Part shown: one piece after another, positions 17,052-52,134 of the stretch | How the letters are laid out: each line of letters begins with the position of its first letter | How positions within the stretch are numbered: the stretch's first letter is position 1 | Source of the DNA: a virus | Length of the DNA stretch: 53,820 nt | IMG/VR virus record: IMGVR_UViG_3300025671_012102 | Location: 1 to 53,820 of that record | Strand: one strand, 5' to 3' | The notes under the pieces: generated by a model | Told to the model about the DNA's origin: nothing | The model's database searches: none | What the model saw: the letters and a program-made list of their open reading frames with translations, nothing else | Program-made: the position numbers and the translations under genes

Positions 17052-17232
17052 CGGCAACAATATCCTATTCAGTTGTTAAGTTAGGGATGTCTATAGCTCT
17101 AATGCTTGGGATACAGCCAGCGTAGGTTATCGCACATTTATTGATCAAAAAAGTATTTTAAGGGACTCAGGGCAAGGGGCGTAGTGTCCCGAAAACCACG
17201 GACATTACGATTTGAATTGCAGGTGAAGCGGT

Positions 17233-18086: not shown

Positions 18087-18391
18087 AAGTAAGATCGGAC
18101 GCAATACGCAAAAGTGCGCGCGGCCAAGATTGCGCACTAAGAATACCTGGTCATTGTAATTTTGATCCAGAGACGACGGTGTTGGCCCACGTTGGCCGTG
18201 ATCGTGGTATGTCGATGAAATGTGACGACACCATGGCGGTGTATGCATGTTCGGGGTGTCACGATGCGATAGATGGTCGAACTACTCTGCTCGATAAAGG
18301 GACTCAAGCCTTATACATTCTCGATGCACTCGAACGCACGCAAAACCACCTGATTCAATCAGGCCTTATCTCTGTTAAGGGGCAAAAATGA
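18083..18391 (+). CDS. YbcO-like (DUF1364) nuclease
   Basis: A 102-residue protein resembling E. coli DLP12 YbcO. Shared blocks: RKSARGQDCALRIPGHCN (about 9-26), PETTVLAHV (about 29-37) and YACSGCHDAIDGRT (about 54-67). The cysteine and histidine pattern (Cys17, Cys25, His36, Cys56, Cys59, His60) fits a zinc-bound HNH-like nuclease core. The start is GTG 18083, overlapping the ninB stop. Likely role: nuclease acting with NinB and RusA on recombination intermediates. Confidence 0.85.
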   Translation: MKVRSDAIRKSARGQDCALRIPGHCNFDPETTVLAHVGRDRGMSMKCDDTMAVYACSGCHDAIDGRTTLLDKGTQALYILDALERTQNHLIQSGLISVKGQK

Positions 18392-18798
18392 AATACGGTC
18401 GTGAAGTGACGTTCACTATCCCTGAAGCATCGATCCTGCTTAATGTGTGGCAGCGGATGCACTGGAATAAGCGTCGCGAATATCACAAAGAGTTATGTTG
18501 GAACGTACGTGCTGCGCTAGAAAGCGAAGGTTACCAGCGCCTAAGTCCCTTTAAAAAATGCAAGATCGAAATAGACCGCTATTCCTCAGTGTTGGGCGAC
18601 TGGGATGGCGTAATGGGAGGACTTAAACCTTTATTTGATACGTTAGTCGTCTGTACCAAAACAAACCCGCTTGGGCTTGGCGTTATCGAAGACGACAACC
18701 CCAAATGCATCATTGAATGCCCAGTTATTAGACAACACAAATCAACACGTAAAGCGGCCTCGACAGTCGTGACAATTACAGAAATATTGGAGGCCTAA
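18388..18798 (+). CDS. rusA: RusA-type Holliday junction resolvase
   Basis: A 136-residue RusA-family endonuclease. Acidic metal ligands are visible at Asp71 and Asp73 (LGDWDGVMGGLK) with Lys80, Asp84, and Asp102/103 in GVIEDDNP, matching the family's D-x-D...K...D arrangement. The N-terminus has the typical SILLNVWQRMHW substrate loop. It cuts four-way junctions formed during recombination and thus trims DNA before packaging. It overlaps the previous gene by four bases, and the next gene starts 2 bases after. Confidence 0.9.
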   Translation: MKYGREVTFTIPEASILLNVWQRMHWNKRREYHKELCWNVRAALESEGYQRLSPFKKCKIEIDRYSSVLGDWDGVMGGLKPLFDTLVVCTKTNPLGLGVIEDDNPKCIIECPVIRQHKSTRKAASTVVTITEILEA

Positions 18799-18799
18799 C

Positions 18800-19699
18800 A
18801 TGCAATATTTATCAGCTCGCCAAATGTGGCACGACGCATTCTACTCGCGTAGTGCAAATGACCAGCTGCTAGAGATCAATCGATCTAATGCAAACTTACT
18901 TAGACGGAAACCGGTAATGAACGAGACACAGACACGTGGACCAGCGGACAATTCCTCTCGTGTGATGCACATGGCAAAAGCAGGGCGCGTACAGTCAGAG
19001 ATAGCGAAGTTACCCGCACATTTACAAGCATTTGGTATGTATTGCTGGGCACCGAAAGAACAGGACACGTTACCAACCTATAAACACCATAACGAGATTG
19101 CCAACGCGCTAGCCCGTGAGATCAAAGAGAAGTTTCCACAGGAATACAGCTATTACACCAGTCGCGTGAGTATCGTAGTTCTGAACGTACTCAAATACGA
19201 GTTTGAGCGCGATAAGGGGCGCAAACCGCAGAACATCGACATTACTCTATCAGGTGCCATGGCGATGTCAAAAGAAAAAGTACAGGCGCAATGGGGACAC
19301 ATCATTAAGCACATTCGCTGCTGTATTCGAGATATGCATTTAGCAACTGATACAGATAAAAATCTATCAATTGGCATTCTGCATTTATTAAAAGAGTGGC
19401 AAACACAGACCGGTGCTGAAGCCACAGAAAAGCATTCAGTTATAGCAAGCCTCGCTTTGAAGTCATTTGCTCACCAAGACCAAGCCTATTTATTCTCGGC
19501 AAGTGAAGAGCGTAAACCAGTGAAGCAATCGAAACCACTTTATACGCAAGAATACCTAAGCTGGCGCGTGGGTGTAGCGCAAGCTAACTGGAGGCGTGAC
19601 GGCTGGCAAGATGCGCTTGACCAGATGACGACTGTATTAAATCAATGGGCAAGAGAATCGTTGGAGACAATTAGTATTCATAAAAAAGCCAGCATTTAG
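18800..19699 (+). CDS. Protein in late-regulator position, function unknown
   Basis: A 299-residue protein with a strong GGAGG ribosome binding site 7 bases before ATG 18800. It ends the early rightward operon, where lambdoid phages place the Q antiterminator. The sequence is mostly helical; ALEANALAREIKEKF-like and WRRDGWQDALDQMTTVLNQW (about 267-286) stretches stand out, and MAMSKEKVQAQWGHIIKHI (about 154-172) may be DNA-contacting. No zinc finger or clear Q signature is seen. Late regulation is proposed from position alone; the strong terminators at 22440 and 22514 before the lysis genes would need an antiterminator. Confidence 0.6.
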   Translation: MQYLSARQMWHDAFYSRSANDQLLEINRSNANLLRRKPVMNETQTRGPADNSSRVMHMAKAGRVQSEIAKLPAHLQAFGMYCWAPKEQDTLPTYKHHNEIANALAREIKEKFPQEYSYYTSRVSIVVLNVLKYEFERDKGRKPQNIDITLSGAMAMSKEKVQAQWGHIIKHIRCCIRDMHLATDTDKNLSIGILHLLKEWQTQTGAEATEKHSVIASLALKSFAHQDQAYLFSASEERKPVKQSKPLYTQEYLSWRVGVAQANWRRDGWQDALDQMTTVLNQWARESLETISIHKKASI

Positions 19700-19704
19700 C
19701 TGGC
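19682..19704 (-). terminator. Terminator for the minus-strand cassette
   Basis: GCCAGC (19688-19693) pairs with GCTGGC (19699-19704) around ATTTA. On the minus strand it is followed by TTTTTTATG. It sits 26 bases past the stop of the gene at 19730 and overlaps the end of the plus-strand gene. Confidence 0.75.
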
Positions 19705-19729
19705 CTAATAGGTGAACAATATCCTTAAC

Positions 19730-19954
19730 TCACTGCGCTGTTATTGATAGTACCTCGATTTGGTAATTTTTCTTGTAAGCCTCTTCATCCGAATCATTTC
19801 TATCCTGTGATGGTATTAGGACGTTATCGGGAATATGCTTCTTTTTTATAGAAAAAAGGATATAGGTTATGTCAGGCTTTCTTGATAACTCTATTATCAT
19901 AGAAAGCTTTTCATCTTTGTATTTATAATCAATTAACCAATTTTTCTTTTCCAT
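19730..19954 (-). CDS. Small minus-strand protein, possible cargo
   Basis: A 74-residue protein beginning MEKKNWLIDYKYKDEKLS. ATG 19954 has GGAG 6 bases upstream and is preferred over upstream starts that run into the dyad at 19990. The protein appears to be a small alpha/beta fold with charged loops. It has its own terminator (19682-19704), and a large dyad lies just before it, so it looks like an independent, regulated unit. No family is recognised. Confidence 0.5.
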   Translation of the reverse strand: MEKKNWLIDYKYKDEKLSMIIELSRKPDITYILFSIKKKHIPDNVLIPSQDRNDSDEEAYKKNYQIEVLSITAQ

Positions 19955-19973
19955 ACAATACTCCATCTTGATT

Positions 19974-20038
19974 AGTGCGCACTTTCCGTACGCAGTGCGC
20001 ATCGTGCGCACTGCGTATTTTTATCTGAGTCGTATAAT
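19974..20038. promoter_or_regulatory. Large dyad with a consensus -10 nearby
   Basis: ACGCAGTGCGCA (19990-20001) and TGCGCACTGCGT (20005-20016) form a perfect 12-bp inverted repeat with a three-base centre. A further palindrome, AGTGCGCACT (19974-19983), repeats its core. A perfect TATAAT lies at 20033-20038 on the plus strand, but no good -35 precedes it. The block may be an operator, or a plus-strand terminator (ATTTTTAT follows). It lies between two minus-strand genes. Confidence 0.45.
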
Positions 20039-20058
20039 ACAGAATAGCGTAATAGACT

Positions 20059-20883
20059 TTATGAAAAAACTTTTTTTAGCAAATCTTCTTCTTTATCTAA
20101 AGCTGCTTCCGGCATTTTTTCAATGTGCCTTTGGCAGTAAGTGTTTAGACTTTCAACATCTTGATATTTTTCAGGGTTAGATAATCTAAAAAGCTCATGT
20201 AAAATTTTTTTAACGCTATCTCTATAAGTTATCAGAGTTCTATCAGGGTTTACATCAATGGAGCATAGGATCACAGCTTCCATGTAAATTTCACTTATAA
20301 TATCGATTACACTTAAAGCAAACCTATTTATTTCTCGTTGATCTTCATCCGATAGATCACTTGATATGAGACATCTATTTCTAGTATATTTTTTCTCCAT
20401 TTTTTCGAAGATAACGCGCCCTTCACTCTTCGATAAAGTTGAGGCTTTCATTGCTGATGTTTTAAGCCCGCATACAATATTTATTTTTCTTTCTGTTGAT
20501 AACTTGTTTTTCCAATCATTGACGTTAAACCAACCAAAGGCCAGCAGGCCAACAGTGCCGAGTCCGGCGAGCATTGAGCCAACCATAGTCCAAAAATCGG
20601 TAGCGTCCTTGTAGCAAAGCGCAAGTGCAATTGTCGCCCCAAGCGCAGCGCCCGTTATTAGGGTTAGTCCTTCGTTAAGGAGGAAGTCAATTATGTGGCT
20701 TAGTACAGATTTTGGAGGTGAAAGCTTCTTTTCCATTTGGCATTGTTCCGTGTTGGTTCGATTGTTCACGCTTGCACTTCTCATCTTTAGTACAAAGTTA
20801 AGAAGGGGAGGTGTTGCGTAGCGTTTAAATAATATGTACATTTTAATTCTGTTTAGGGAAGTTAACACATACCAATCAATCAT
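20059..20883 (-). CDS. Two-helix membrane protein of unknown function
   Basis: A frame of 274 codons. The true start is uncertain: ATGs lie at codons 1, 15, 34 and 50, none with a strong ribosome binding site; codon 34 or 50 would give 241 or 225 residues and remove an unconvincing N-terminus. Two adjacent membrane helices (about 73-90 and 97-118, full frame) are followed by a helical soluble domain (about 125-274). The gene is AT-rich, opposes the late operon and is divergent from the gene at 20899. It looks like cargo. No family is recognised. Confidence 0.55.
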   Translation of the reverse strand: MIDWYVLTSLNRIKMYILFKRYATPPLLNFVLKMRSASVNNRTNTEQCQMEKKLSPPKSVLSHIIDFLLNEGLTLITGAALGATIALALCYKDATDFWTMVGSMLAGLGTVGLLAFGWFNVNDWKNKLSTERKINIVCGLKTSAMKASTLSKSEGRVIFEKMEKKYTRNRCLISSDLSDEDQREINRFALSVIDIISEIYMEAVILCSIDVNPDRTLITYRDSVKKILHELFRLSNPEKYQDVESLNTYCQRHIEKMPEAALDKEEDLLKKVFS

Positions 20884-24421: not shown

Positions 24422-26065
24422 ATGGCGATGGATAGGGCGGAAAGACGCAGGCTCATAAAAGAGCTACGCAAAGACTACAAGGTTTTCGCCAAGCGTTGCT
24501 TAAAGATCAAGATCAAAGCGGGTGAGATTGCGCCTTTTGATTTCAATGCCGCACAAGAGCACATTCACAAAGAAATAGAGGACCAGCTTAAACGCATTGG
24601 TAAAGTGCGGAAAGTGTTGCTTAAAGGTAGACAGCAAGGCGGGTCTACTTATGTTGCAGGTCGTTACTATAAGAAAGTAACTGAAACTAAGGGTTTCAGC
24701 GCGTTCATACTTTCTCACGAAGCTAAGACAACAAGCCGCTTGTTCGAAATGATTCAGCGCTACCACAAGCACTGCAATCCTCTTCTTAAACCGCGAGCTG
24801 GCAAAGACTCAGCACAGGGAATGAACTTCCCTAAGCTGGATTCAGGATTTGAGCTAGCCACAGCCGGTAACAAAGAGACAGGGCGTGGTTTTACTTCTCA
24901 GTTATTTCACGGGTCAGAAGTAGCGTTTTGGCCGAATGCCGATGCCATCCTCGCGGGTATTTTGCAAACATTACCCGATGTGCCAGGCAGTGAAGTCGTA
25001 CTTGAATCCACGGCCAACGGTGCTGGCGGGATCTTTTACGAATACGTTCAAGATGCGTTAGCCGGTAACGGTGAATATGAGCTGATCTTTGTTCCTTGGT
25101 ACTGGCAACCAGAGTATAGAGCAGCAGCACCGAAAGACTTTAAGCGCACGGAAGAAGAAGACCATTTAGTTAAGCTTTGCCGAAACCATCCAGATGGACC
25201 TAAGTACAGCCACACACTAACCAACGATCAATTAATGTGGCGTCGCAACAAGGTCTACGAGCTAAAAAGCCGCGACAAATTCAAGCAAGAGTATCCGTGC
25301 TACATCAAAGAAGCCTTCTTGTTCTCAGGTCGTCCAGTATTTGACCCGAATCACACTGAAGCCGCTTTTGCTGACTGCAAGGTTCCGCTTGCTCGATATC
25401 GAGTCACACCCGAAACGGGGCGTATGTCACTCAATGCAGAGGGTGAGTTCACGATTTGGGAGCGAGCCGAAGCAGGCAAGCTTTACGCAATTGGTGCCGA
25501 CGTTGCCGAAGGGCTTGAAACTGGTGATTTCTCAAGCGCTGACATTCTTAACGAGCAAGGTGAGCAAGTCGCGCATTGGCGCGGCCACATCGACCCAGAT
25601 CGTTATGGTGAGCTGCTTTACTATCTCGGTAAGCGCTACAACAACGCTTATTTAGGTGTTGAACGAAACAATCATGGCTTAACCACGCTTACCGCTCTGC
25701 AGAAGAAAGACTATCCGAACCTTCATATTGAAGAAGACGTTCAGCGCCAAGGTGGTGAAAAGAGCATGAAGCGTATCGGCTGGCTAACAACGAGTAAAAC
25801 GAAACCGTTGATTATCGACAACCTGGCGTCTGAGCTACGCGATGGAACAAGCGGAATTCGAAATAAAGACACAGTTGACGAGTGCCAAAGCTACGTTATC
25901 CACGAAAACGGCAGCTATGGCGCACAGTCAGGCAAATACGACGATCGAGTTATGAGCTACGCAATTGGCAAAGAAATGGTTAAGCGTATGCCGAAAATAC
26001 ACATCCCAGATCACATTATTCAAGATGCATTTCATTCATCAGCAGACAGCACAGCAGGTTATTAA
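24422..26065 (+). CDS. terL: Terminase large subunit
   Basis: A 547-residue packaging ATPase/nuclease. The ATPase domain has a Walker A variant KGRQQGGST (68-76) and Walker B with Ser165-Glu166 in LFHGSEVAFW, then a coupling LESTANG motif (about 194-200). The C-terminal RNase H-like nuclease shows Asp360 (AIGADVAEG), Asp374, Glu414 (GVERNNHG) and Asp507/Asp508 (KYDDRV). All catalytic residues are present. It powers DNA entry into the procapsid through the portal, whose gene overlaps its stop (TAATG). An in-frame ATG at 24428 is an alternative start. Confidence 0.97.
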   Translation: MAMDRAERRRLIKELRKDYKVFAKRCLKIKIKAGEIAPFDFNAAQEHIHKEIEDQLKRIGKVRKVLLKGRQQGGSTYVAGRYYKKVTETKGFSAFILSHEAKTTSRLFEMIQRYHKHCNPLLKPRAGKDSAQGMNFPKLDSGFELATAGNKETGRGFTSQLFHGSEVAFWPNADAILAGILQTLPDVPGSEVVLESTANGAGGIFYEYVQDALAGNGEYELIFVPWYWQPEYRAAAPKDFKRTEEEDHLVKLCRNHPDGPKYSHTLTNDQLMWRRNKVYELKSRDKFKQEYPCYIKEAFLFSGRPVFDPNHTEAAFADCKVPLARYRVTPETGRMSLNAEGEFTIWERAEAGKLYAIGADVAEGLETGDFSSADILNEQGEQVAHWRGHIDPDRYGELLYYLGKRYNNAYLGVERNNHGLTTLTALQKKDYPNLHIEEDVQRQGGEKSMKRIGWLTTSKTKPLIIDNLASELRDGTSGIRNKDTVDECQSYVIHENGSYGAQSGKYDDRVMSYAIGKEMVKRMPKIHIPDHIIQDAFHSSADSTAGY

Positions 26066-27966
26066 TGAGCAATCCTACAGATTTTGAAACACCAGAAGTG
26101 TCGGAAGAGCTAAGCGACAATCTTGGTACCAAAGTGCGCGGCTTGTTTGCGACCGCTGAGCGTGAGCGTCGTGATTACGAGGATCAATGGCTTAAAGATT
26201 TGCGTCAATACAAAGGTGTTTACGACGATGAAGTTGTTGCGAATATCGCAGCAGGCCGTAGTAAGACATTCATTCGCTTAACTCGCTCAAAAGTAAAAGC
26301 CATGGATTCTCGTTTGATGGATATTCAGTTTCCAGCGGGTAGCCAGAAGAACTACAGACTTGAAGCAACCCCCGTTCCTGATATCGATCCAACATTACGC
26401 GAGCAAGTCATTAACGAATGGTTTGCTCAAAACGCATCACAAAGCGACTTACCACCACAGCCACCGACGCCAGAGCAGATAGAAGACGTTATTAAAGAAG
26501 CAGCAGAAGATCGTGTTGAGCGAATGTCTGAAGAGATTGACGATCAGTTAAGCGAGCTGAAATACCGCGAAATCTGCAAAGACGTTATTCATAGCGGTAA
26601 TGTGTTTGGCACTGGTGTTTTGAAAGGTCCATTGTTTGAAACTCGGCTCAAGAAGCGCTGGATAGAAACGGCTCAAGGTGTTTCGCTCGTTGAGCATGAG
26701 GAAATGAAGCCTTACTTTGAGTTCGTGCCAATTTGGGATATTTACCCAGATATGAACGCCATGACGCTAGAGGACTGCGAGTACGTTATTCAGCGCCACA
26801 CAATGCTAGCCTCAGACCTTCGCCAGCTTGCCCGACGTGGTGACTTCGATAAGAAGAAGATCAAGGAATACATTGCTGCGAATCGTAACGGTGACAAGAG
26901 CCAGACTAAGCAGCATGAGCAAGAATTACGCTACATCAACGGAAACAAAGACTCTGTATCAGCAATCGATAATAAACAGTATGAAGTGCTTGAATTCTGG
27001 GGTTATGTTGACGGTCAAGACCTTGTCGATATGGGTGTGGAAGGTATTGGCGAAGATGAAATAGACGATGAATTCGAAGCGAATGTGTGGGTTCTAGGTA
27101 ATACGGTCATCAAAGCCGAGCTAAACCCAACTGCACATGGGACTCGCCCTTATAACTTCTATTACTTTGAAAAAGATGAGACGGGGATTTTTGGTGTTGG
27201 CCTTCCTGCCATCCTTGCCGACACTCAAAGCATGTTTAACGCTGCCATTCGTATGAGCATTGATAACGCAGCTATTTCATCAGGAGCGCAGTTCGAGATT
27301 GATTTGACTGTGTTAGACATAAATAAAAATCCAGAAGCTACAAAGATCTTCCCAAATCGCGTTTGGTTTAAAACTGGCAACTCTTCTGATAATCGAAAAG
27401 CTCTTACTGTTCACACTATCCCAAATAACACCAGCCAGCTTCTTAACCTGGCACAGCTTGCAAAAGAATTGGGCGATGAAGCCAGTACTATGCCGAGCTA
27501 TATGGGCGGCAATGATGCAGGGATTGGTGGTGCAGGCGATACAGCCAGTGGGTTATCTATGCTCATGGGTGCTGCAGGAATCACCGTGAAAGACGTTGCC
27601 CTTAACTTTGATATGGGTATCACTCAGCCAGCCATGACAGCTTTGTACAACTGGAATATGCAGTTCAATCCTAACCGTGAAATCAAGGGCGATATGAATG
27701 TCACCGCTTTGGGCGCTGTTTCTCTCGTTGCAAAAGAGATCAAGAGTAAGCAGCTTACCGAATTTGCGGTATCAACTAGCAATCCAATGGATGCCCCTTA
27801 TGTTAACCGTCAGAAGCTTAATGCTGAACGAGTCAAAGCGCTCGATTTACCAGAAGATATTTTGTACACCAAAGAAGAATCTGACCAGCTGCAATCTCTA
27901 CAGCAAGAAAACCAAGCTCTTATGCAGCAACTACAAAAGCAGGTAGGTACTGATGTCGCAGCATGA
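26065..27966 (+). CDS. Portal protein, podovirus type
   Basis: A 633-residue portal subunit, a twelve-copy ring expected at the capsid vertex. Recognisable parts: an N-terminal helical segment (ERERRDYEDQWLKDLRQYKGVY, about 32-53), the FVPIWDIYPDMNAMTLEDCEYVIQR block (about 222-246), a wing beta region, and the LPAILADTQSMFNAAIRMSIDNAA helix (about 380-403). The C-terminus (about 590-633) is a Gln-rich coiled coil, the barrel-like part of long podovirus portals. It follows terL with overlapping stop/start codons. Length fits P22/BPP-1-like portals. Confidence 0.92.
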   Translation: MSNPTDFETPEVSEELSDNLGTKVRGLFATAERERRDYEDQWLKDLRQYKGVYDDEVVANIAAGRSKTFIRLTRSKVKAMDSRLMDIQFPAGSQKNYRLEATPVPDIDPTLREQVINEWFAQNASQSDLPPQPPTPEQIEDVIKEAAEDRVERMSEEIDDQLSELKYREICKDVIHSGNVFGTGVLKGPLFETRLKKRWIETAQGVSLVEHEEMKPYFEFVPIWDIYPDMNAMTLEDCEYVIQRHTMLASDLRQLARRGDFDKKKIKEYIAANRNGDKSQTKQHEQELRYINGNKDSVSAIDNKQYEVLEFWGYVDGQDLVDMGVEGIGEDEIDDEFEANVWVLGNTVIKAELNPTAHGTRPYNFYYFEKDETGIFGVGLPAILADTQSMFNAAIRMSIDNAAISSGAQFEIDLTVLDINKNPEATKIFPNRVWFKTGNSSDNRKALTVHTIPNNTSQLLNLAQLAKELGDEASTMPSYMGGNDAGIGGAGDTASGLSMLMGAAGITVKDVALNFDMGITQPAMTALYNWNMQFNPNREIKGDMNVTALGAVSLVAKEIKSKQLTEFAVSTSNPMDAPYVNRQKLNAERVKALDLPEDILYTKEESDQLQSLQQENQALMQQLQKQVGTDVAA

Positions 27967-29136: not shown

Positions 29137-30120
29137 ATGAAATACGGTGATATTTCTCCACGTACTGCCGCGCATGTATCCAAACAGTTATTGGAGCGCG
29201 GCATCCCTTACATGTGTTTGGAGCTATTTGGTCAAACAAAACCATTACCAGCAAACTCCACGCAATCCATGACGTTCCGACGTTATGAAGCGCTTGATCC
29301 AACTCCCAAGGTGCTTACTGAAGGCGTCACACCTTCAGGTAACACGCTAACCAAAACAGACATTACCATTCAAACCGAACAAGTTGGTGATTGGATTGAA
29401 TTGACTGATGTGATCCAAGATACACATGAAGATCCGGTGTTGTCTGAATCGGTAGATATTTTAGGCGAGCAGTCTGCAGAAATGCTTGAGCTTATGCGAT
29501 ATGGCAAATTAAAAGCAGGCTCTACAGTGTTTTATGCTGGCACAGGCGTAGTGTCGCGAGACGGTGTGAAAACCAAAATGACTCGTGACCTACAGCGTAA
29601 GGTAACGCGTTTTTTGCAGGCTCAAAAAGCTAAGAAAATTACTAAACGTGTTGCCGCTTCTCCAAATTACGGCACCTCCCCTGTCGCACCTGCCTATGTG
29701 GGTATTTGCCATACGGACTTGGATAGCGATATTCGAGACATGGAAGGCTTTGTTCCAGTTGAAAAGTACGGTTCCGGCATGTCCCCGTTTGAAGGCGAAA
29801 TTGGTAAGTGTGAGTCAGTGCGCTATATCTGCTCTCCAGTGTTTAATCCTTTTGCCGATGCAGGCGCAGCAAGCTCTGATATGTTGTCCACCACTGGAAC
29901 AAACGCTGACGTTTACCCGATTATGTTCTTTGGTGCGAACGCATACGCACTGGTGCCGTTTAAAGGCAAAAACGCAGTTACCCCAATGGTGGTTAACCCT
30001 AAACCGGCAAACGGTGATCCATTAGGTCAGCGTGGTTCTGTGGGTTGGAAGACTCGCACTGGTACCGTAATTTTGAATGACTTATGGATGGCGCGCGTTG
30101 AGGTTTCAGCAAGCGAATAA
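29137..30120 (+). CDS. Major capsid protein, N4-gp56 type
   Basis: A 327-residue coat protein with the pattern of the N4-gp56 family: an opening DISPRTAAHVSKQLLERG, then TFRRYEAL (about 47-54), LTEGVTPSGNTLTKTDITI (about 60-78), a QVGDWIELTDVIQD block (about 81-94) and, at the end, GSVGWKTRTGTVILNDLWMARVE (about 301-323). It has the HK97-like fold in known relatives and forms the shell. Length matches the family. Position after the scaffold gene supports the call. Confidence 0.92.
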   Translation: MKYGDISPRTAAHVSKQLLERGIPYMCLELFGQTKPLPANSTQSMTFRRYEALDPTPKVLTEGVTPSGNTLTKTDITIQTEQVGDWIELTDVIQDTHEDPVLSESVDILGEQSAEMLELMRYGKLKAGSTVFYAGTGVVSRDGVKTKMTRDLQRKVTRFLQAQKAKKITKRVAASPNYGTSPVAPAYVGICHTDLDSDIRDMEGFVPVEKYGSGMSPFEGEIGKCESVRYICSPVFNPFADAGAASSDMLSTTGTNADVYPIMFFGANAYALVPFKGKNAVTPMVVNPKPANGDPLGQRGSVGWKTRTGTVILNDLWMARVEVSASE

Positions 30121-41018: not shown

Positions 41019-42134
41019 ATGAGTTACGGTTTAGGTTTTATAGCAGATGGTTTATTGAAGGGCCAAGAACGTAATAGAAACTGGGGGTTGCGCCAAAGGC
41101 AAGAGGAACGAGCTCAAACGACGTTTGGTCTTCAAGTTCCAGTGCTTGAAGCAAAAGCTCAGGAAGCCAAGGAGTATGTTACTCCTGACGCAATAGAGCG
41201 AAGAAATACGATTGCTGGAAACAACCTAGCCATATCGAGCAATAATGCTGAATCCTCCGGATATGATAGGGATCTCAAGAAAAATGATGCTTCTACAGAC
41301 AATATTGCAAGAATCAACCGAGAACGTGAAGCTAAAGCGTTAGGGGCTGAAAGCTTAGCTAAGGGCTATGGGCTTGGTAATGCGATTAAGCAGCAGCAAA
41401 TAGACATGACGAATTTAGGTCCACTGTCTAAAGAAGGTAGAGACCTGCTATATAACAAAAACAAATACGATCTAGAGGCTCAGGCGTGGGAACATAAAAT
41501 GAGGGAGGCAGTCAACCAAACAGACAAGCTTAAAGCAATGATGGCTTTATCTGAGGTGAAACTGAACAGAGAGTTCAGAGTTATTGAGCTGGCCAGAAGT
41601 GGCAACACGAAGGCAGCGGCATCATTAATTAATGGATTTAGCGACAACCCTTATAAGAATGTTGTTGATGCTGTGTTTACAAAAGAAGGCGGTATAACTG
41701 GGTACAATGAAAAAGGCGAGATCGTTGCTGAGTACACTCCAAAAGAAGTCGCAGGCATTGAATTGGAGATCAGAAATAAAGAAGCCAAAGCAAGAGAGGC
41801 TAAGGCAGGAACACCAAAAGTCAATTTCGAAAAAATCTATAATGATTTGGGCGAGCAAATTGGCGAAAGACCATTCATTACTAAAACAGACCCACAAACA
41901 GGCCAGCCTTACAAAGAGTATGTGGAAGAGCGAAAAGGCACGATTTCCCAGACAGACAGCGATGAAGAGATTGCTCTTGCGAAAACCATGGTGAAAGCGG
42001 GAGAGATGACACCTGACCAGTTCCAGCAGCTTTATGGTCAAGCTTACGCACCAAATCAAAATAATGCCTCGCCAAGTGCTAGTAACAAGCCAAGGCAAGA
42101 TGATTACGACGTAGATATTCCTTTAATCTTCTAA
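41019..42134 (+). CDS. Internal virion (ejection) protein, medium
   Basis: A 371-residue, strongly helical, charged protein starting MSYGLGFIADGLLKGQERN. It is rich in Ala, Lys and Glu (KEVAGIELEIRNKEAKAREA) with a flexible Ser/Asn/Pro-rich end. No enzyme motif is visible. Lying between the small ejection protein and the giant polyvalent protein, it is best taken as a second ejected protein. Confidence 0.65.
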   Translation: MSYGLGFIADGLLKGQERNRNWGLRQRQEERAQTTFGLQVPVLEAKAQEAKEYVTPDAIERRNTIAGNNLAISSNNAESSGYDRDLKKNDASTDNIARINREREAKALGAESLAKGYGLGNAIKQQQIDMTNLGPLSKEGRDLLYNKNKYDLEAQAWEHKMREAVNQTDKLKAMMALSEVKLNREFRVIELARSGNTKAAASLINGFSDNPYKNVVDAVFTKEGGITGYNEKGEIVAEYTPKEVAGIELEIRNKEAKAREAKAGTPKVNFEKIYNDLGEQIGERPFITKTDPQTGQPYKEYVEERKGTISQTDSDEEIALAKTMVKAGEMTPDQFQQLYGQAYAPNQNNASPSASNKPRQDDYDVDIPLIF

Positions 42135-42150
42135 AACACCGCAATTTTCA

Positions 42151-42178
42151 AAGCCGCCCACCGAGGCGGTTTTTTTTC
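42151..42178 (+). terminator. Terminator before the giant gene
   Basis: AAGCCGCC (42151-42158) pairs with GGCGGTTT (42165-42172), with one wobble, around CACCGA, followed by a T-run. Only 18 bases separate it from the giant gene's GTG, so expression of that gene requires read-through. Confidence 0.75.
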
Positions 42179-42196: not shown

Positions 42197-45100
42197 GTGG
42201 CCGATTACACAAGAGAAGAGATAGCGCGCCTAGCCGCAATCAAAAAAAGAATTAATGGCAAAATGGAGAGCCTTGGTTCGTCACCTGAAAACGAGCAGGG
42301 CTTTTTAGGTGATGCGGTCGATGCTGTTCAACATGGTTTGTTGAGTGGAGCAGCAGACTTAACGGACGGTGTTGGCTATTTAACTGGATCTGACACTATT
42401 AGAAAGGGCGCGAATTATCTAAGAGGCCAAGCAGACAACCAAATTAATCAAATGTCACCAGATGGTCGTGAGGCGTTTCAAGGGTTTGGTATTCAGGCTG
42501 ATGAAAGCAGCCCAACTGGTTATGGCTTCAAAGATGAAAGCAGCTTAAAAGGCTTTGGTCTTAATGTGCTTAGCGGTGTAGGCAGTTTTGCCCCAACAAT
42601 GGTGCCAGGGCTTGGTGCTGCCAAAGCGATTTCAGTTGCAGGTAAAGCAACAGGGCTTGCAGGTAAAGGAACAAAAGCGGCCACAGCACTAGATAAAGGC
42701 GCTGATGTTGTAGGCTTTGCAGGTGCTGGCGCTGCGAGCATTGGCGGATCTACAGGCAACCAAGCTTATGAAACCGTCGTTAACGCTGACTTTCACACAT
42801 TAAAAGACGCTGAAATTTTCCAAAAAGAATACTGGAACCTGAGAAAACTCAAAGAGCTTGATCATATTTCCGCACTGAAGCAAGCGCGTGAAAATGTGGC
42901 TCGCGAGCTGGCAACGGAAGCGGCAAAAGATGGCGCCATCATGGGGGCGATCACGCAAGGCGCACTTGGTCCAGTGATGGGCAAGTTATTCCGTGGTGAG
43001 GCTGGCAGTATCGGTAAAGCAGCCGCCACCGGTGCAATTACCGAAGGCTCACAAGAGTTTGTTGAAAGCGGTGGTCAAACTGCTATCTCAAACATGGCTG
43101 TTAATCCAGCGGTACCAACCAACACAATGGATAATGTCGTTGGCGATGCGCTGACAGGTGCCATGGTCGGTGGCCCCGTAGGTGGTGGCTTTGGTGCAGC
43201 TGGCGCTTCTTTCGGTCGCTTTCGTAAGCCTAAAGACAACACGGATGATCCGCTTGATCTTTCCGAGCAAGATCAAGGCTATCAAGCAGTAGAGCGGCAG
43301 ATTGCCGAAATTGAAGGCTTGATGGTTGAAAATGGCGACAATTTAACAGATTCTGAATTTGCAGAGCTTGAAGCAAAGCGAAATGAGCTACTACAAAGAC
43401 GAGCGGAAATCACTGGTGAACAGCCTATGGATTTTTCTGGTCCAGTCGAAAGCCAGGTGCAACCAGAGCAGCTTGCTCTTCCCAATCAAAATATTATCTA
43501 TGGTGAACGCCCAGAGCCAAGCCAAGAGCAAATCCAAGCGCGTCAAAAGAACCAAGCTGCCTTTGAAGGCCAATTTGGTGAGCCACGGAATACAGGAAGA
43601 GAGGGTGAATACCTTGGTCAGGTCTTTCCGGAAAGCGCCAATCAACAACAAGGCGGTAATGTCTATGATGGTGAAGTGTTGCGCGATCCTTTGTCACTTG
43701 AAGCGCCACAGCAAGCCGGTGATGTACCAGCGCTAGAAGATGCAGGGATTATTTATGGCGAAAAACCAGAAAGCAATGCTCGTCCAGCTCGTTCCAATGG
43801 TTTAACCGACCCATACACCGCGCCACAGCCAAGCCGTAAAAACGACAATCCAATCTATCAAGAGATTAAACATAAACAGCGATTGCTTGAAGAACAAGAG
43901 CAATCAGTAACAGAAGAAGCAGCGCCACAGCTTAACCAACAAGCAGTCCCTGAAGCACCGTTAGAGAAATCAGCTCCACAAAATGAAGTATTAGTATCAG
44001 AGTCTAAAAATGTAACTGAGTTGCCAGCAGTTGAAAGTAGTCCTGTTACTCAGCCGCCATTAGAAGGCATTGTCGCCGAGCAAGAACAGCCATCATCTGC
44101 AGAGCTGCCAACTGAGGGCAGCGAGCCAATCAAGCAAGCATTAGATAAGGCTGCACAGGACACAAATACCCAGCCAACTGAAAAGCAGATCGAGGCTGAT
44201 AACTATAAAAAAGGTCGGGTATCTCTTCATGGCTTAGATATCGCCATTGAAAATCCTAAAGACTCTGTTCGCTCAGGCAAAGATAGTGATGGTAAAAAAT
44301 GGGAGTCTAAAATGGCTCACCATTATGGCGATATAAAAGGCATTAAAGGGGCCGATGGCGATGACCTTGATGTATTTATTGGCGATAAACCGGAAAGTGA
44401 CAAAGCCTATATTGTCGATCAGGTCGACCCAAAAACAGGCGAATTTGACGAGCATAAAGTCATGCTTGGTTTTGATGATAAAGCGCAAGCTGAAAGCGGC
44501 TATCTTAAAAATTACGAGGATGGCTGGAAAGGTGTTGGTGCTGTGACTGAAATGCCAATCAGTGAATTTAAAGAGTGGATTAAGTCTGGCGATACGACAA
44601 AGCCGGTTAGTGAATTGATGGGCGGTAAAGCAGATAAAGTCATTGAAGCAGAACCAGCCGAGTTGCCACCTGTCACTGTTAAATTATCTTTATCCAATAA
44701 GCCTTTTAAAACCGAGTCCAGCGCTCGTTTATCTCGTACATTCAAAGACACACCTAATGCCGAAGTTGTACCTGTGGATGGCGGTTTTGGCGTTAAAGAG
44801 GGGGAAGTAGCCAAGCAGAATGCAGAACCAGCAACAGCCAAAGTCAATGTAGACGAAAGCGATGAACCACCTTATGCCCATTATCATTCAGTCCAAAAAA
44901 ACTTGTTTGATGGTAAAGAGGTGACAGCTGATGAGGTAAAACAAGGCTTTGAGCGCCTTGCTGGTGACCCTGCAAGAGCAAAAGCTGAGCTAAATAAGCT
45001 AACCAAGAAAGAATTGGCAAAAATAGTTAATGGTCATGTTTATTCTGATGAAAAGAAAGCCCGCCTAGTGGAGCGTGCTTATCAATCGAGTATTAGTCGG

Positions 45101-48100
45101 TACCGATTCATTGGAAATAATAAAGGTTCTTTTACTTCTCATTCCATTAAGTTAGATGGCGTAATTGATGAAACACGTAAACACCTGAATTCATTAAGCA
45201 ACGAATCGCTAAAAGATTACGGTGCCCACCTTCGCGAGCAACAAGCAGAGCGTCAAAAGAAGTTTAATGAATACAAAGAGAGATTAACCAACCCAAAAAC
45301 AATAAAAGACTTTCAAGACTCTATAGCGACACTTGGCAAAGGTCGTTTATCTGATGAACAGCTTGCTCAGTACGATAAGCTACTTGCTGAAAAAGAAATG
45401 ACAGATAAGCCAGCCGTTAAACAAGGCCTAGAGAGTGATGAAAAAATAGAGCTTGGCGAACCAGAAGAAAGTACTCATGGAAAAACAGGAGACACTATCT
45501 TCAATGTAAAGGCAATTACTCGCATTGGTAAGGAGAAATTTAAGGAAGCGGCTAATTTTGCTCGATCTTTGGGTGGTGGTTACTACCGTAGCAATTTTTA
45601 CTTTAAAAGCCGCGAGGATGCAGGGCTTTTTAGCAATTGGATGAATGGAGAGGATGTAGACCTTACCGAGAAAAAACAGGCGAGAGATCAAGCCAAGAAA
45701 GAAAGCGCTGCAAGCCGATTAAAATCAATGGCAGATAGCCTAGAACAGCAAGCGAACGAAAGACTTAACTCCGAGCGCAAAGAGAATACTATAAAGCGAA
45801 TGAGAGAGGCAGATAGTGCTCGCAACGCTGCAAATAATGACATTGAAACGGCCAGACTTCTAAAAGCCATTGCAGATAACCCTAAGTCTGTATTGAAAAA
45901 TCTCACGCAAAAAGTGCAAGTAGAATTGTTTCAGCAGCTTCAAAAATCACTTGTCCACTATGCCCCTTCTGAGCTAAAGCAAAAAACACCGGATGGATAT
46001 GATCATTTTAGAGGTGACGTAAGCTCTGAAAAAAAAGCACAGCTTGTAAAAATGCCTTTAGCTGAACTTCATCAAAACTTAGTAGATGATATTGCGAAAA
46101 AAAGTGAAGGTAAAAAAGGCTTTATTCTCTTATCTAGGATGCTTGCTAAAAAATCAAAACAAAGTGAGAGAGGAAAAGTTATACCTTTAGATCAGCGTGA
46201 AATAGAAGGAATTATTAAGTTTTATGAAGCGAATAAAGAAGATTTTCAATACAGTTTTTTGAAGAATAATGTCGAAGATTATAAGCGATTGAAGCGTATG
46301 GGCATTACCAGCAAGCCAGCTCTAAGGGCCGCCTTGTTAGAGTTTATGAACATAGAGAAAAAGGTAGATAAGCCAGAAACAGGAAAAAGTAAACTGGAAG
46401 TCATGCAGCGCAATTTAAAACAAAGAGTGCTTGGAAACCGTAATGCCTTTAATGACTTCTTTCCAACTCCAACAGAAACGGCTAGTGAGATTATTGATCT
46501 AGCAGATATTCAGCCTGGCATGAAAGTGCTTGAACCTTCTGCCGGTAATGGCTTGCTGGCAGACGCAGCAAAAGAGGTTGGTGCAAAAGTCGATACTGTT
46601 GAAATGGCTGGCCAGTTGCGTGAAATTCTAAGCGAGAAAGGTTACAGGCTAGTTGGTGATGATTTCCTAGAATACAGCGGCGGCATTGGCGAATACGATC
46701 GCATCGTTATGAATCCCCCGTTTAGCAACGACCAAGATATTCAGCATGTTGCGCATGCCTATGACAAATTAAAGCCAGGCGGTCGATTAGTCGCGATCGT
46801 GTCTAGGATGGCAGGCGAGCGCCAAAACAAACGCAATAAAGCATTTAGTCAATGGCTTGATGACCTTGGTGCCGAAACTCAAGCGTTACCAGAAAACGCT
46901 TTTAAATCCTCGTTAAACCCAACAGCCGTGCGAACTAAGGCAATCATCATTGATAAGCCAGAAGACGGCAGTATTAATGTTCCGGAAGAAGTTAAGCCAC
47001 CTAAAGAAGCGCTAATGTCAATTAGCGAGCGCGCGGCAAGTGGTATGAAAGCCGAAGATATCCGAAAAGCAGTTGAACCGCTTATCAAGCAGCTTCACGA
47101 AGAAAACACCTTTCAAGTTGTCCAGTCTGTTAACGATTTACCCTTTGCCGTGCGCCTTCTTGTTAAAAAGCAGTTATCTAAATCGAAAGGCGAGAATGCA
47201 ACCGTTCGCGGTGTGAATGCCGGTGCCAAAAACTATCTTATTGCTGATGGTATCAAGGACGAAAAAGAAGCGGTTTCTATCTTCCTTCATGAAGTGGTTG
47301 GGCATAAAGCTGTTCTGGATATGCTAGGAAAGGAAGGCGATTCCATCATGGAACGTATTGCTTACAGCTATGGACCTAAACAGCTGCAGGACTTAATTAA
47401 AGCCTATGGTGCAGATTTCAAAACCAAAGAAGGGCGCATTCTTCTTGGCAAAGAAAAAGTGGCCCAAATGGCTGAGAGGAACGAGAAACCTTCTTTGCTT
47501 GGCAAGCTGGTAGCAAACGTAAAAGCATGGTTGCGCAATTACTTCCCCAATATCAAATGGTCAGATAATGACGTGCTCAACATGCTGGCAACCGCGAGGG
47601 ATAACGTCGAAAACCGCTACATGGTGAAAGTTGACCTAGATTCAGCCGAATCGAAAAGCGATTCAACCGAGAAAGAGGCTAATCTCTCTATAAGGGCCAA
47701 AAACAAAACAGAGCCAACCGAAGAAACACCATACGACACTCTATATAGAACATTAGGGCAAAAAGATAAAACCGTCTTCCAGAAAGCAAAAGATGAAATG
47801 AAGCGTCAATTTAAAGCCGGTGGGTTGCTTCCTGACTCTGTATTCAGCAAAAAAATTGAACGTGATTCAAACATGAATGCCAGCGAACTGGATGTTAGCG
47901 CTTATCTATCATCATTCAGAGCAGCTGTGAAAAAAGCATATGGGAAAGAGTACTCTGATTTAAACGATACGCTTAAACAAAAAATCAATAATCAGATGAG
48001 TTCGACTGACCCAGATAAGACCATACCTTTCTCCGTTAGGCTGGAATTGATGAAGATGAGATTTAGCATCAAAGGCTTATCGCAAGAATATGCTGCCATT

Positions 48101-50368
48101 CTAAAGAGTGATATGGAGCAATTAAGAAACGAAGGCAAAGACACAGCTGCAAACGAAAAAGCTCAACTATTGGAAACGATATTGGGCAATTTGGACACAT
48201 ACACTAATAGATCATATAAAGCCTTTGATGATCCGAAATGGCCTAAAAAAGTCCCTCAGAATATCTTAGATGATGCTAAAAACTACCTTGAATCACGCTA
48301 CCTTGATCAAGGGTTATCAGAAAAGCAGATTCAAGAAAAAGTTGCTAGGACAATACGAACTATCTTGGAAGAGGGAACAGCTTATGAGGATATGGGGAGC
48401 TTTATAAAAGAAAGTAAATTAGGTGCTAAGGATTTAAGTACCTTGAAGAAAAGAAAGGAAATCGCCCCTGAAATTCGGGCATTGTTAGGCGAATACCAGG
48501 ACGTTGAAGTTAACTTTGCCAAGACAGTTACAAAGACAAGTCATCTCGTCGCAAACCATAAGTTTCTTCAGCATGTTCGTGATTTAGGTGAAAAAGAAGG
48601 CTTCTTGTTTACGGAAGAAAACAAACCTCTCGATAAAAGTGTTGTGAAAATTGCCGCGGATGGTTCGGAAGTTATGGCGCCATTAAATGGCTTCTACACT
48701 TACCCTGAAATCGAACAAGCTTTTAGAGAGGCTCTTGGTAAGCAGGGTGATATGCCAGCATGGTTAAGTGGAATTATTCGATTAAACGGCATTGTGAAGT
48801 ACGGGAAAACTGTTCTATCACCCACCACGGCAATGAGAAACATTTGGTCTGCTTTTTTCTTCTCTGTAGCAAACGGGCATTTTGACGTTAGCCAAATGCG
48901 TAAGTCTATCGAAGTTAGAAAACAGTACTTTGGTGGCGACAATGACAAAAGTAAATTGGCCTATCTTAAAAAATTAAAAAGCCTTGGGGTTATTTATGAT
49001 ACGCCTTATGCGGGTGAAATGATGGACCTTTTAGAAGATTCTCGCCTGCGGGATTTTATGACTAACAAGAAGGTCTTTTCATCGTTTACTAAGCTTAATG
49101 ACTTTGCTCAAAAATTTTACCAGTACGGTGATGATATGTGGAAAATCATGGGCTGGGAAAACGAGAAAGCCATGCTCATGAAATACAAGAAAATGAGCGA
49201 ACCTGATGCCGAAGTTGCTGCCGCTGAACGCATTCGCAATACATACCCAACTTATTCGATGACAGGGCGATTTACCCAGTCTCTCAGACGCTTCCCTCTT
49301 GCTGGTACCTTTGTTTCGTTTCCCGCTGAAATTATTCGAACTAGCTATCATATGATTCGCTATCTTAAGCAAGACTTTAAAGAGTCACCTGCTTACGCTA
49401 GACGTAAAGTAGCCGGTTTGGCTCTGGTCAGCAGCTTAGCATTTGCTGCCCAAGGAGTAAGTAAGGCGTTAATGGGGCTTGACGACGACGAGGAAGAAGC
49501 TGTTAGAGATATGGCTGCATCTTGGCAGAAAAACTCAAACATATTGTTTACTGGCCGCGACGAAAACGGAAATATTCAATATTTGGATATGTCGTTTCTT
49601 GATCCCTACAACTATTTCAAACGTCCAATTAATGCCATGTTAAGAGATCAGCCTATTAAAGACATGGTTGCTCAATCCGCTTCTGAAATGCTGACCCCTT
49701 TCTTTGGTGAAGACATTACCTTTAGTAATTTGATGGAGGTTTACACAAACAAGAAAGGCAGTGGCGGGAAGGTGTTTAATGAACAAGGATCAGTGGGAGA
49801 TCAGGCTATGGATATAGCTGACCACTTAAGGAAAGGTTTACAACCGGGCTTTATGAGCAATATGGAACGAATGTATAAGGCTATGGAGGGAGATGTTTCT
49901 GCCAGTGGTAAAAAATACACTGTACAAGATGAAATGGCCGCTCTTGTTGGCTTTAGAATGTCAACATTAGACCCTAAAACGGCACTTTATTATCAGAGCT
50001 TCGACTTTAAGCAAAGCAAAGCTGATGCCGCAAAAATACTAAAGGATGTTTTAAGAAACCCTAACAAGGTGTCAAAATCCGATCTAGAAAACGCAAGAGA
50101 TACGATGCTTAAAGCTAGAAAAAATTCATACGACAGGATGATGCGATTAGTTAAGTCTGCGAAAAAAGCAGGTATGACAAACCCAGAGATAGGACAAATA
50201 TTGAAGTTAAGCGGAGTCAGTCGACAAGACGTTATGTCTCTCATTCTTGGGCGTATGCCAAAAAATGATAGTTATCTTGAAATGGCTGCTTCTATATCAA
50301 AAAGAGCAGAGGTTTTGTACGGCAAAGAGTCTGGAAACGAAATCATAAGTAGAGCGAAAGGACTGTAA
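42197..50368 (+). CDS. Giant polyvalent virion protein (2723 residues)
   Basis: A 2723-residue multidomain protein, start GTG 42197 with GGAG upstream. Visible parts in order: Gly/Ala-rich hydrophobic N-terminus (about 40-400); Gln/Pro/Glu-rich linker (about 420-665); pyrophosphatase-like domain of polyvalent proteins (about 668-800; MAHHYGDIKGIKGADGDDLD); small GGGYYRSNFYFKSREDAG domain (about 1090-1150); N6-methyltransferase-type domain (about 1400-1560) with VLEPSAGNG from 1444 and NPPF at 1506-1509; zincin-type motif HEVVGH (His1698, Glu1699, His1702); LPD38-like C-terminal region (about 2205-2480) with a membrane helix (about 2405-2428). Such polyvalent proteins are thought to enter the host with DNA and counter defences early in infection. 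Enzymatic activity is inferred from kept motifs. Confidence 0.88.
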   Translation: MADYTREEIARLAAIKKRINGKMESLGSSPENEQGFLGDAVDAVQHGLLSGAADLTDGVGYLTGSDTIRKGANYLRGQADNQINQMSPDGREAFQGFGIQADESSPTGYGFKDESSLKGFGLNVLSGVGSFAPTMVPGLGAAKAISVAGKATGLAGKGTKAATALDKGADVVGFAGAGAASIGGSTGNQAYETVVNADFHTLKDAEIFQKEYWNLRKLKELDHISALKQARENVARELATEAAKDGAIMGAITQGALGPVMGKLFRGEAGSIGKAAATGAITEGSQEFVESGGQTAISNMAVNPAVPTNTMDNVVGDALTGAMVGGPVGGGFGAAGASFGRFRKPKDNTDDPLDLSEQDQGYQAVERQIAEIEGLMVENGDNLTDSEFAELEAKRNELLQRRAEITGEQPMDFSGPVESQVQPEQLALPNQNIIYGERPEPSQEQIQARQKNQAAFEGQFGEPRNTGREGEYLGQVFPESANQQQGGNVYDGEVLRDPLSLEAPQQAGDVPALEDAGIIYGEKPESNARPARSNGLTDPYTAPQPSRKNDNPIYQEIKHKQRLLEEQEQSVTEEAAPQLNQQAVPEAPLEKSAPQNEVLVSESKNVTELPAVESSPVTQPPLEGIVAEQEQPSSAELPTEGSEPIKQALDKAAQDTNTQPTEKQIEADNYKKGRVSLHGLDIAIENPKDSVRSGKDSDGKKWESKMAHHYGDIKGIKGADGDDLDVFIGDKPESDKAYIVDQVDPKTGEFDEHKVMLGFDDKAQAESGYLKNYEDGWKGVGAVTEMPISEFKEWIKSGDTTKPVSELMGGKADKVIEAEPAELPPVTVKLSLSNKPFKTESSARLSRTFKDTPNAEVVPVDGGFGVKEGEVAKQNAEPATAKVNVDESDEPPYAHYHSVQKNLFDGKEVTADEVKQGFERLAGDPARAKAELNKLTKKELAKIVNGHVYSDEKKARLVERAYQSSISRYRFIGNNKGSFTSHSIKLDGVIDETRKHLNSLSNESLKDYGAHLREQQAERQKKFNEYKERLTNPKTIKDFQDSIATLGKGRLSDEQLAQYDKLLAEKEMTDKPAVKQGLESDEKIELGEPEESTHGKTGDTIFNVKAITRIGKEKFKEAANFARSLGGGYYRSNFYFKSREDAGLFSNWMNGEDVDLTEKKQARDQAKKESAASRLKSMADSLEQQANERLNSERKENTIKRMREADSARNAANNDIETARLLKAIADNPKSVLKNLTQKVQVELFQQLQKSLVHYAPSELKQKTPDGYDHFRGDVSSEKKAQLVKMPLAELHQNLVDDIAKKSEGKKGFILLSRMLAKKSKQSERGKVIPLDQREIEGIIKFYEANKEDFQYSFLKNNVEDYKRLKRMGITSKPALRAALLEFMNIEKKVDKPETGKSKLEVMQRNLKQRVLGNRNAFNDFFPTPTETASEIIDLADIQPGMKVLEPSAGNGLLADAAKEVGAKVDTVEMAGQLREILSEKGYRLVGDDFLEYSGGIGEYDRIVMNPPFSNDQDIQHVAHAYDKLKPGGRLVAIVSRMAGERQNKRNKAFSQWLDDLGAETQALPENAFKSSLNPTAVRTKAIIIDKPEDGSINVPEEVKPPKEALMSISERAASGMKAEDIRKAVEPLIKQLHEENTFQVVQSVNDLPFAVRLLVKKQLSKSKGENATVRGVNAGAKNYLIADGIKDEKEAVSIFLHEVVGHKAVLDMLGKEGDSIMERIAYSYGPKQLQDLIKAYGADFKTKEGRILLGKEKVAQMAERNEKPSLLGKLVANVKAWLRNYFPNIKWSDNDVLNMLATARDNVENRYMVKVDLDSAESKSDSTEKEANLSIRAKNKTEPTEETPYDTLYRTLGQKDKTVFQKAKDEMKRQFKAGGLLPDSVFSKKIERDSNMNASELDVSAYLSSFRAAVKKAYGKEYSDLNDTLKQKINNQMSSTDPDKTIPFSVRLELMKMRFSIKGLSQEYAAILKSDMEQLRNEGKDTAANEKAQLLETILGNLDTYTNRSYKAFDDPKWPKKVPQNILDDAKNYLESRYLDQGLSEKQIQEKVARTIRTILEEGTAYEDMGSFIKESKLGAKDLSTLKKRKEIAPEIRALLGEYQDVEVNFAKTVTKTSHLVANHKFLQHVRDLGEKEGFLFTEENKPLDKSVVKIAADGSEVMAPLNGFYTYPEIEQAFREALGKQGDMPAWLSGIIRLNGIVKYGKTVLSPTTAMRNIWSAFFFSVANGHFDVSQMRKSIEVRKQYFGGDNDKSKLAYLKKLKSLGVIYDTPYAGEMMDLLEDSRLRDFMTNKKVFSSFTKLNDFAQKFYQYGDDMWKIMGWENEKAMLMKYKKMSEPDAEVAAAERIRNTYPTYSMTGRFTQSLRRFPLAGTFVSFPAEIIRTSYHMIRYLKQDFKESPAYARRKVAGLALVSSLAFAAQGVSKALMGLDDDEEEAVRDMAASWQKNSNILFTGRDENGNIQYLDMSFLDPYNYFKRPINAMLRDQPIKDMVAQSASEMLTPFFGEDITFSNLMEVYTNKKGSGGKVFNEQGSVGDQAMDIADHLRKGLQPGFMSNMERMYKAMEGDVSASGKKYTVQDEMAALVGFRMSTLDPKTALYYQSFDFKQSKADAAKILKDVLRNPNKVSKSDLENARDTMLKARKNSYDRMMRLVKSAKKAGMTNPEIGQILKLSGVSRQDVMSLILGRMPKNDSYLEMAASISKRAEVLYGKESGNEIISRAKGL

Positions 50369-51459: not shown

Positions 51460-52134
51460 ATGATAAAGCGTTTATTTTCACACATGTTGTTAATTGTGGT
51501 GTCGGTGCTGTCGATTTCGACACATGCTTACGAACCAGTCAAAAAATCAAAGTCAGCTATTTGCCATGCGCCAGGCACAGAGTACTACAGCCGAACCAAG
51601 AACTTTACTTCCTATGACACTTTAGACCAGTGCCTTGCTAGTGGTGGCCGATTACCCAAAGGTCAAAGCTACACGCCCCAGTCAAAGCCTAAAGTCGCAT
51701 CAGAAACACCAACCAAATACAGCCGAGAGGAATTTGGAAGAGGCTGGGCCGATGAAGATAAGGATTGCCAAAACACTCGACAAGAAATACTGATCTCTCT
51801 ATCTACAGCACCTGTTCGTTTCTCAGATGATCGAGAATGCAGAGTAACGTTTGGTCGTTGGATTTCGATGTACTCAGGAGAAGTGATTTTTGATGCTTCA
51901 AAACTGGATGTTGATCACATTGTTCCGTTAAAGTGGGCGTGGGATAATGGTGCAGATAAATGGAGCAAAGATAAGCGAGAACGGTTTGCGAATGATCCCG
52001 CTAACCTAGTCGCTGTTGAGGCTTCGTTAAACCGGCAAAAAGGTGCAAAAGGGCTAGACGAATGGCTACCACCTAAAAACCAAACGCAGTACAAGGCGAG
52101 ATTTGAGCGAATTTTAAAGAAGTATGGGATGTGA
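51460..52134 (+). CDS. Secreted HNH nuclease (GmrSD C-terminal/DUF1524 type)
   Basis: A 224-residue protein with a signal peptide (1-23; cut after THA). A small Cys-containing region (about 33-66; ICHAPGTEYYSRT, then QCLASGGRLPKG) is followed by an HNH nuclease (about 85-224): LDVDHIVPLKWAWDNG with Asp152-His153, FANDPANLVAV with Asn182, and SLNRQKGAKG with Asn191. These are the active-site pieces of the DUF1524/GmrSD C-terminal fold. The protein is likely periplasmic or secreted and cuts DNA, for example incoming phage DNA or environmental DNA. The ribosome binding site AAAGGAG lies about 12 bases before ATG. It is monocistronic. Confidence 0.85.
   Translation: MIKRLFSHMLLIVVSVLSISTHAYEPVKKSKSAICHAPGTEYYSRTKNFTSYDTLDQCLASGGRLPKGQSYTPQSKPKVASETPTKYSREEFGRGWADEDKDCQNTRQEILISLSTAPVRFSDDRECRVTFGRWISMYSGEVIFDASKLDVDHIVPLKWAWDNGADKWSKDKRERFANDPANLVAVEASLNRQKGAKGLDEWLPPKNQTQYKARFERILKKYGM

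Follow-up and report, generated by a model that had tools for sequence, protein, structure and literature searches.

Phage polyvalent proteins form an already known class, in which unrelated catalytic domains are joined in a single large chain (over 2000 aa), and their packaging into virions was proposed by Iyer et al. in 2017 (PMC5512222). In that survey, phage-type members are giant late-gene products with an InPase, an adenine methyltransferase, a zincin and an LPD38-like end. A DarB-like example, gp69 of the Bcep22-like podophage JC1 (4515 aa; PMC9144972), is a giant virion protein whose gene closes the morphogenesis module, preceded by an acetyltransferase-like gene and by genes for virion proteins. 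It has a lytic transglycosylase, a methyltransferase, a helicase, LPD3 and, near the C-terminus, LPD38 proper as defined by Pfam; an InPase is not listed. DarB of phage P1, compared here from its description in the literature, is a virion-carried adenine methyltransferase homologue (methylase plus SNF2 helicase) that the phage requires to withstand type I restriction. It belongs to a set of six Dar proteins. These guard only the DNA of their own virion, by a mechanism that is unsettled (PMC12810830, PMC12707154) and that some regard as physical shielding (PMC12707154).

Giant virion proteins of another kind are the virion RNA polymerases (vRNAPs) of N4-like phages (Schitoviridae), such as N4 gp50. 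PMC5512222 reports that the N-terminal region of the N4 protein serves injection, mentioning relatives of it only in related phages, and that the C-terminal region is required for encapsidation; the two roles are cited as unpublished data in PMC4496689. The paper on the N4 structure found no structural relative of C2.

The 2723-residue protein analysed here joins an InPase, a methyltransferase and a zincin, and was rightly called a polyvalent protein in the initial annotation. It is a variant of the class: compared with the proteins described in PMC5512222, it has no SNF2 helicase after the methyltransferase (which also sets it apart from P1 DarB), and its C-terminus falls outside the Pfam LPD38 family. 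With N4 gp50 it shares giant size, adjoining virion proteins and, in the same order, an N-terminal domain (robustly), a zincin and a large helical C-terminus, but an InPase and a methyltransferase replace the RNA polymerase, the C-terminal homology is only suggestive, and the phage family and gene layout differ. The two features that go beyond the known class, and most deserve attention, are this shared N-terminal domain and an exchange of cargo in the same slot between near-identical phages, seen twice; neither was found in the passages of PMC5512222 that were consulted. In our preferred reading, to which we give a probability of roughly 0.6, the product would be a virion-packaged ejection protein, with a chassis made of the N-terminal domain, the zincin and a conserved helical C-terminal region. 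Its cargo would be the InPase and a single exchangeable slot, here occupied by an adenine-N6 DNA methyltransferase together with the upstream segment that belongs to it.

Genomic setting

The window (the whole 53,820-bp virus record that was analysed) carries a temperate phage of a marine bacterium, with an integrase gene at nt 1-1017 and a gene for a CI-like repressor at nt 13834-14592. The late genes run from terminase (nt 24422-26065) through portal/adaptor (nt 26065-27966), major head protein (nt 29137-30120) and tail genes to the giant gene, a late/packaging location within a portal- and terminase-encoding phage that is characteristic of polyvalent proteins. The giant ORF begins with GTG about 11 nt after a GGAG RBS-like site and is open over all 2723 codons; it takes up 15.2% of the window, in agreement with the 15 percent first reported. 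Features of the locus are listed in Table 1.

Table 1. Domains of the giant protein and the genes directly upstream, with their positions in the window.
Feature	Position (nt)	Strand	Basis
Head-morphogenesis / acetyltransferase-like protein, 230 aa	39623..40315	+	phrog_651, E 2.4e-7; position as JC1 gp63
Virion structural / ejection-type protein, 230 aa	40325..41017	+	phrog_8003, E 5e-20
371-aa protein preceding the giant gene, candidate ejection partner	41019..42134	+	Position; no family match
Polyvalent / ejection-type protein, 2723 aa	42197..50368	+	GTG start
N-terminal domain, residues 21-360	42257..43276	+	Profile homology to N-terminal region of N4-like vRNAPs
Pro/Gln/Glu-rich linker, residues 361-635	43277..44101	+	Sequence
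InPase domain, residues 662-796	44180..44584	+	PF18823, E 1.4e-57
Exchangeable cassette, residues 881-1604 (helical region, small alpha/beta part, methyltransferase)	44837..47008	+	LPD5+LPD1 replacement in L003/L083
TaqI-like gamma-class N6-adenine methyltransferase core, residues 1405-1590	46409..46966	+	FPTP, EPSAGNG, NPPF; structural model
Zincin metallopeptidase-like domain, residues 1605-1835	47009..47701	+	HEVVGH (47288-47305), third ligand E1753
Conserved helical C-terminal region, residues 1836-2723	47702..50365	+	Distant relative of LPD38 (hhalign)

Two ejection-type proteins had been placed ahead of the giant gene. One of them matches a virion-structural PHROG, whereas the 371-aa protein next to the giant gene matches no family. 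Direct homology between the small virion genes adjoining the giant gene and their counterparts in the Cellulophaga phage phi18:3 and the Pseudoalteromonas phage Y3 was not detected.

A terminator-like hairpin with a T run lies at nt 42150-42177, just 5' of the giant gene, and can also be read before the corresponding gene of the related locus L003. It could reduce the amount of giant protein made, but a single site of this kind is no more than chance would be expected to yield.

N-terminal domain and relation to N4-like polymerases

A profile of the N-terminal domain was built from 44 homologues, with known vRNAP records absent among them, and in an initial search it matched residues 158-446 of N4 gp50 at 46.7 bits. 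In a controlled test on seven vRNAPs, those of Vibrio phage 1.238.A (58.9 bits), EcP1 (57.9), N4 (49.5) and DSS3phi2 (43.6) were matched and those of LUZ7, MIF8 and Vibrio phage 1.026.O were not; reversed sequences scored at most 6.6 bits and 420 local shuffles at most 2.4 bits. When the search was reversed, a model of the vRNAP N-terminal region found two members of the window protein's family (L060, at 59.7 bits, and L004), and gave the window protein only 0.5 bits, although in the correct register, so that the link of the window protein to N4 runs via intermediates. These profile comparisons robustly support homology between the domain and the N-terminal region of N4-like vRNAPs, by which the N4 region would gain relatives beyond its own family.

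The zincin also connects the two groups of proteins. Its profile aligns with that of the C1 zincin of the N4 vRNAP (58.7%, E 9.4e-5; reversed control 0.1%), in accord with Iyer et al. (PMC5512222), and it is followed by a helical C-terminus, as in gp50. A T7-like RNA polymerase domain was not matched in the giant protein by either Pfam or PHROGs.

The shared N-terminal domain bears on a possible but clearly less probable account, in which the product would be a polyvalent protein of the usual DarB-like antirestriction kind, located inside the head and shielding DNA, without a special relation to N4 vRNAPs or a role as ejection channel, and in which the methyltransferase and the zincin would still act. 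Matches to PHROGs labelled as DarB-like antirestriction and as DNA methyltransferase agree with this, as do a gene order resembling that of Bcep22-like podophages whose giant protein is DarB-like, and the entry of Dar proteins with the DNA (PMC12810830). It sits poorly with an N-terminal domain homologous to vRNAP N-termini, and with the absence of an SNF2 helicase, the usual partner of a DarB-type methyltransferase.

Catalytic domains

The pyrophosphatase-like domain named in the initial annotation is an InPase, which matches PF18823 at 193.8 bits (Pfam cut-off 26.8). Its acidic metal ligands are conserved: D725, D751, E752, K754, E685, R692 and Y710 do not vary among 84 homologues, of which 94% have D720 and 70 have D722. 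The portal protein gp19 in PDB 9b41 terminates in the same domain (E 5e-35), InPase-portal fusions being known already from PMC5512222.

The HEVVGH motif (residues 1698-1703), likewise recognised before, belongs to a zincin with the HEXXH and downstream Glu pattern, H1698, E1699 and H1703 being found in 97-100% and E1753 in 95% of 78 homologues. The Pfam MPTase-PolyVal model (PF18818) did not match this domain at E 10; since twelve clades are described for the polyvalent zincin class (PMC5512222), that model need not cover every zincin.

The methyltransferase motifs FPTP (residues 1422-1425), EPSAGNG (1446-1452) and NPPF (1506-1509) vary little or not at all across 76 homologues. A predicted model of residues 880-1840 (mean pLDDT 83) aligns with M.TaqI over 160 residues (Z 18.0, rmsd 2.6, 26% identity), so that the methyltransferase predicted earlier from EPSAGNG and NPPF holds. 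Because the catalytic columns show little or no variation among 84 homologues for the InPase, 76 for the methyltransferase and 78 for the zincin, the three motifs are not chance occurrences, and their predicted active sites are intact.

The substrate is less firmly indicated by the fold. The model scores equally well with METTL5, an rRNA adenine methyltransferase (Z 18.1), and the substrate cannot be read from NPPF by itself, so that the enzyme might act on RNA or on the host, in host takeover, rather than on entering phage DNA. We regard this as unlikely: identity with METTL5 is 15% as against 26% with M.TaqI, and the protein has a TP cap motif together with NPPF. The TP motif, motif I and NPP(Y/F) are the set of features that PMC5512222 assigns to polyvalent EcoKI/TaqI-like N6-adenine DNA methylases. 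According to the same source, methylases of this type are nearly always fused to a helicase. Here, no helicase was matched 3' of the methyltransferase or anywhere else in the giant protein, nor in three related proteins (L101, L120 and L127). In the literature consulted we found no measured case in which a methyltransferase of this kind acts in antirestriction when the SNF2 helicase that normally accompanies it is missing. A conserved helical and alpha/beta region precedes the methylase, at the place where the DarB-type dyad has LPD36.

Exchange of the central segment

The best relative of the giant protein is encoded by a prophage of Marinomonas polaris DSM 16579 (L083), with 90% identity over residues 1-880 and 95% over residues 1605-2723. 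Between these parts, an unrelated stretch containing LPD5 and LPD1 takes the place of the methyltransferase cassette, and in the DNA the identity between window and relative stops at nt 44793 and returns at nt 47048. Two further loci (L003 and L093) have the same protein architecture and coordinates as this prophage. An independent pair shows the same replacement, with the methyltransferase in L101 and LPD5-LPD1 in L106 and L102, the C-termini being 94-95% and the N-termini 76-79% identical. A third pair (L115/L098) differs in the presence of LPD5-LPD1. In the Pseudoalteromonas phage Y3 (L002, nt 7498-20872), both cassettes are found in tandem in a single chain, together with ddrB-ParB and ART; an LPD38-like end is also present in the next gene, which starts with an ART-like stretch.

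Residues 881-1604 thus move as one unit. The approximately 500 residues before the methyltransferase accompany it in 76 homologues and are replaced together with it, so this stretch, helical except for a small alpha/beta part (residues ~1090-1150) and mostly left without an assigned fold before, belongs to the methyltransferase. Further effector domains had been suspected at about residues 800-1090, 1150-1400 and 1750-2200. For residues 880-1400 this was rejected, the stretch from 881 being inherited with the methyltransferase and confidently co-folding with it, and residues 1750-2200 are the end of the zincin and the start of the conserved C-terminal region. Since a near-identical prophage lacks the methyltransferase, the enzyme is not essential for this type of phage.

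All 15 ORFs with LPD5-LPD1 that were compared (including L003, nt 9001-16605) carry an invariant GSLAHEW(W/F/M)HA(L/M/V)D(N/S/H)YF motif. Its position is between LPD5 and LPD1, which rules it out as a part of LPD1. The alternative cargo may itself hold a metallopeptidase.

C-terminal region

The C-terminal 880 residues are common to about 30 relatives with differing middles. The Pfam LPD38 model (PF18857) was not matched in 26 members of the family or, at E 10, in the window, while in a positive control it matched 19 of 50 related-phage records, with E down to 6e-55. The region is nevertheless a distant relative of LPD38 outside the Pfam family, since its comparison by hhalign with LPD38-bearing C-termini gave 84% (E 7.6e-6, 481 co-linear columns) as against at most 0.3% for reversed and unrelated controls (unrelated 0.15%). 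The earlier description as an LPD38-type, membrane-linked end is therefore borne out as distant profile homology but not as membership of the Pfam family, and for the membrane link there is a single weak hydrophobic peak at residues 2404-2428. The predicted structure (pLDDT 72.6, pTM 0.65) has its best matches among phage proteins of the same kind, first that of Cellulophaga phage phi19:3. A C-terminal homologue, gp123 of Cellulophaga phage phi18:3, has the annotation of structural protein on the strength of MS/MS of virions.

In a VIA-align comparison of the C-terminal model with the PDB, the T7 core protein (9jyy_I) ranked first (Z 7.4, 268 residues, rmsd 6.3), as might be expected if the region were an inner-membrane channel domain of the T7 gp16 type. 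That is quite doubtful, as helical models can reach a Z of 7.4 with an rmsd of 6.3 by chance. Foldseek returned nothing significant for the C-terminal model and a profile comparison with 13 T7 gp16 homologues was null (0.4%), and kinship with gp16 was set aside as improbable.

Comparison with the N4 C2 profile gave P 0.01-0.07, not exceeding reversed controls, and this did not change when the C2 profile was deepened to 54 vRNAP sequences; pooling the family of the window protein and the LPD38 proteins in one profile brought no gain. Two profiles give one C2 register, identical over A5 columns 502-526 (reversed control off by 124). A structural alignment of the C-terminal model to N4 C2 (9pnr) ends at 558/3440 and the sequence profile at 558/3437, i.e., within three residues. 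Taken together, these results give a hint that the C-terminal region is related to N4 C2.

A putative delivery system

Packaging, ejection, cleavage, methylation and protection are steps that we infer, and in the preferred reading, that of a packaged ejection protein with chassis and cargo, they could proceed as follows. The C-terminal region would put the giant protein into the head, from which it would exit via the tail, with or ahead of the DNA, and the N-terminal domain would aid passage across the inner membrane. The zincin may cleave the chain and so release the cargo, self-cleavage having been proposed for the polyvalent class (PMC5512222). The methyltransferase would then mark the entering DNA, which host restriction enzymes would spare, early methylation thereby protecting the incoming phage genome. 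The InPase would remove pyrophosphate or a related nucleotide. Entry of the protein with the DNA, as the initial annotation also proposed, is likely by analogy, because mass spectrometry has detected homologous giant proteins in virions. Packaging is backed most closely by experiment in the case of the LPD38-bearing JC1 gp69, which follows a similar gene order and is represented by 51 unique peptides in CsCl-purified virions (PMC9144972). That the enzyme domains are mere relics in a protein serving assembly is very improbable. Structural annotations of many relatives (phrog_22602; phi18:3 gp123) would fit such a role, but across dozens of diverged homologues the catalytic residues hardly change, or do not change at all, amid varying surroundings, and one module is recurrently swapped for another.

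A broader proposal, for which we see even odds, is that polyvalent proteins and N4-like vRNAPs descend from one ejection chassis with interchangeable cargo; the joint claim includes an N-terminal injection domain, a zincin and a helical encapsidation domain of LPD38/C2 type as its parts. If true, the cargo would be an RNA polymerase in N4, an InPase with a methyltransferase in the window, or LPD5-HExxH-LPD1, and the N4 polymerase would be just one of the loads that a widespread delivery system carries. The ends of the chassis would be packaging and injection signals that are open to test, and a shared chassis would explain how many phages deliver differing enzymes in the first minute of infection. 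The near-identical natural pair, which differs mainly in having either the methyltransferase or LPD5-LPD1 as cargo, offers a route to the function of the uncharacterised LPD5-LPD1 module.

Other features of the window

The segment at nt 3001-6500, with two ORFs that lack a Pfam match, has a G+C content of 0.30-0.33, compared with 0.43-0.48 in most of the window, and is possibly a recent acquisition. Near the integrase gene, nt 2397-3275 encode a protein with SRA and HNH nuclease domains (PF02182, PF13391), and a GmrSD C-terminal/HNH protein is encoded 3' of the giant gene (nt 51460-52134). Both products are possible modification-dependent nucleases borne by the prophage.
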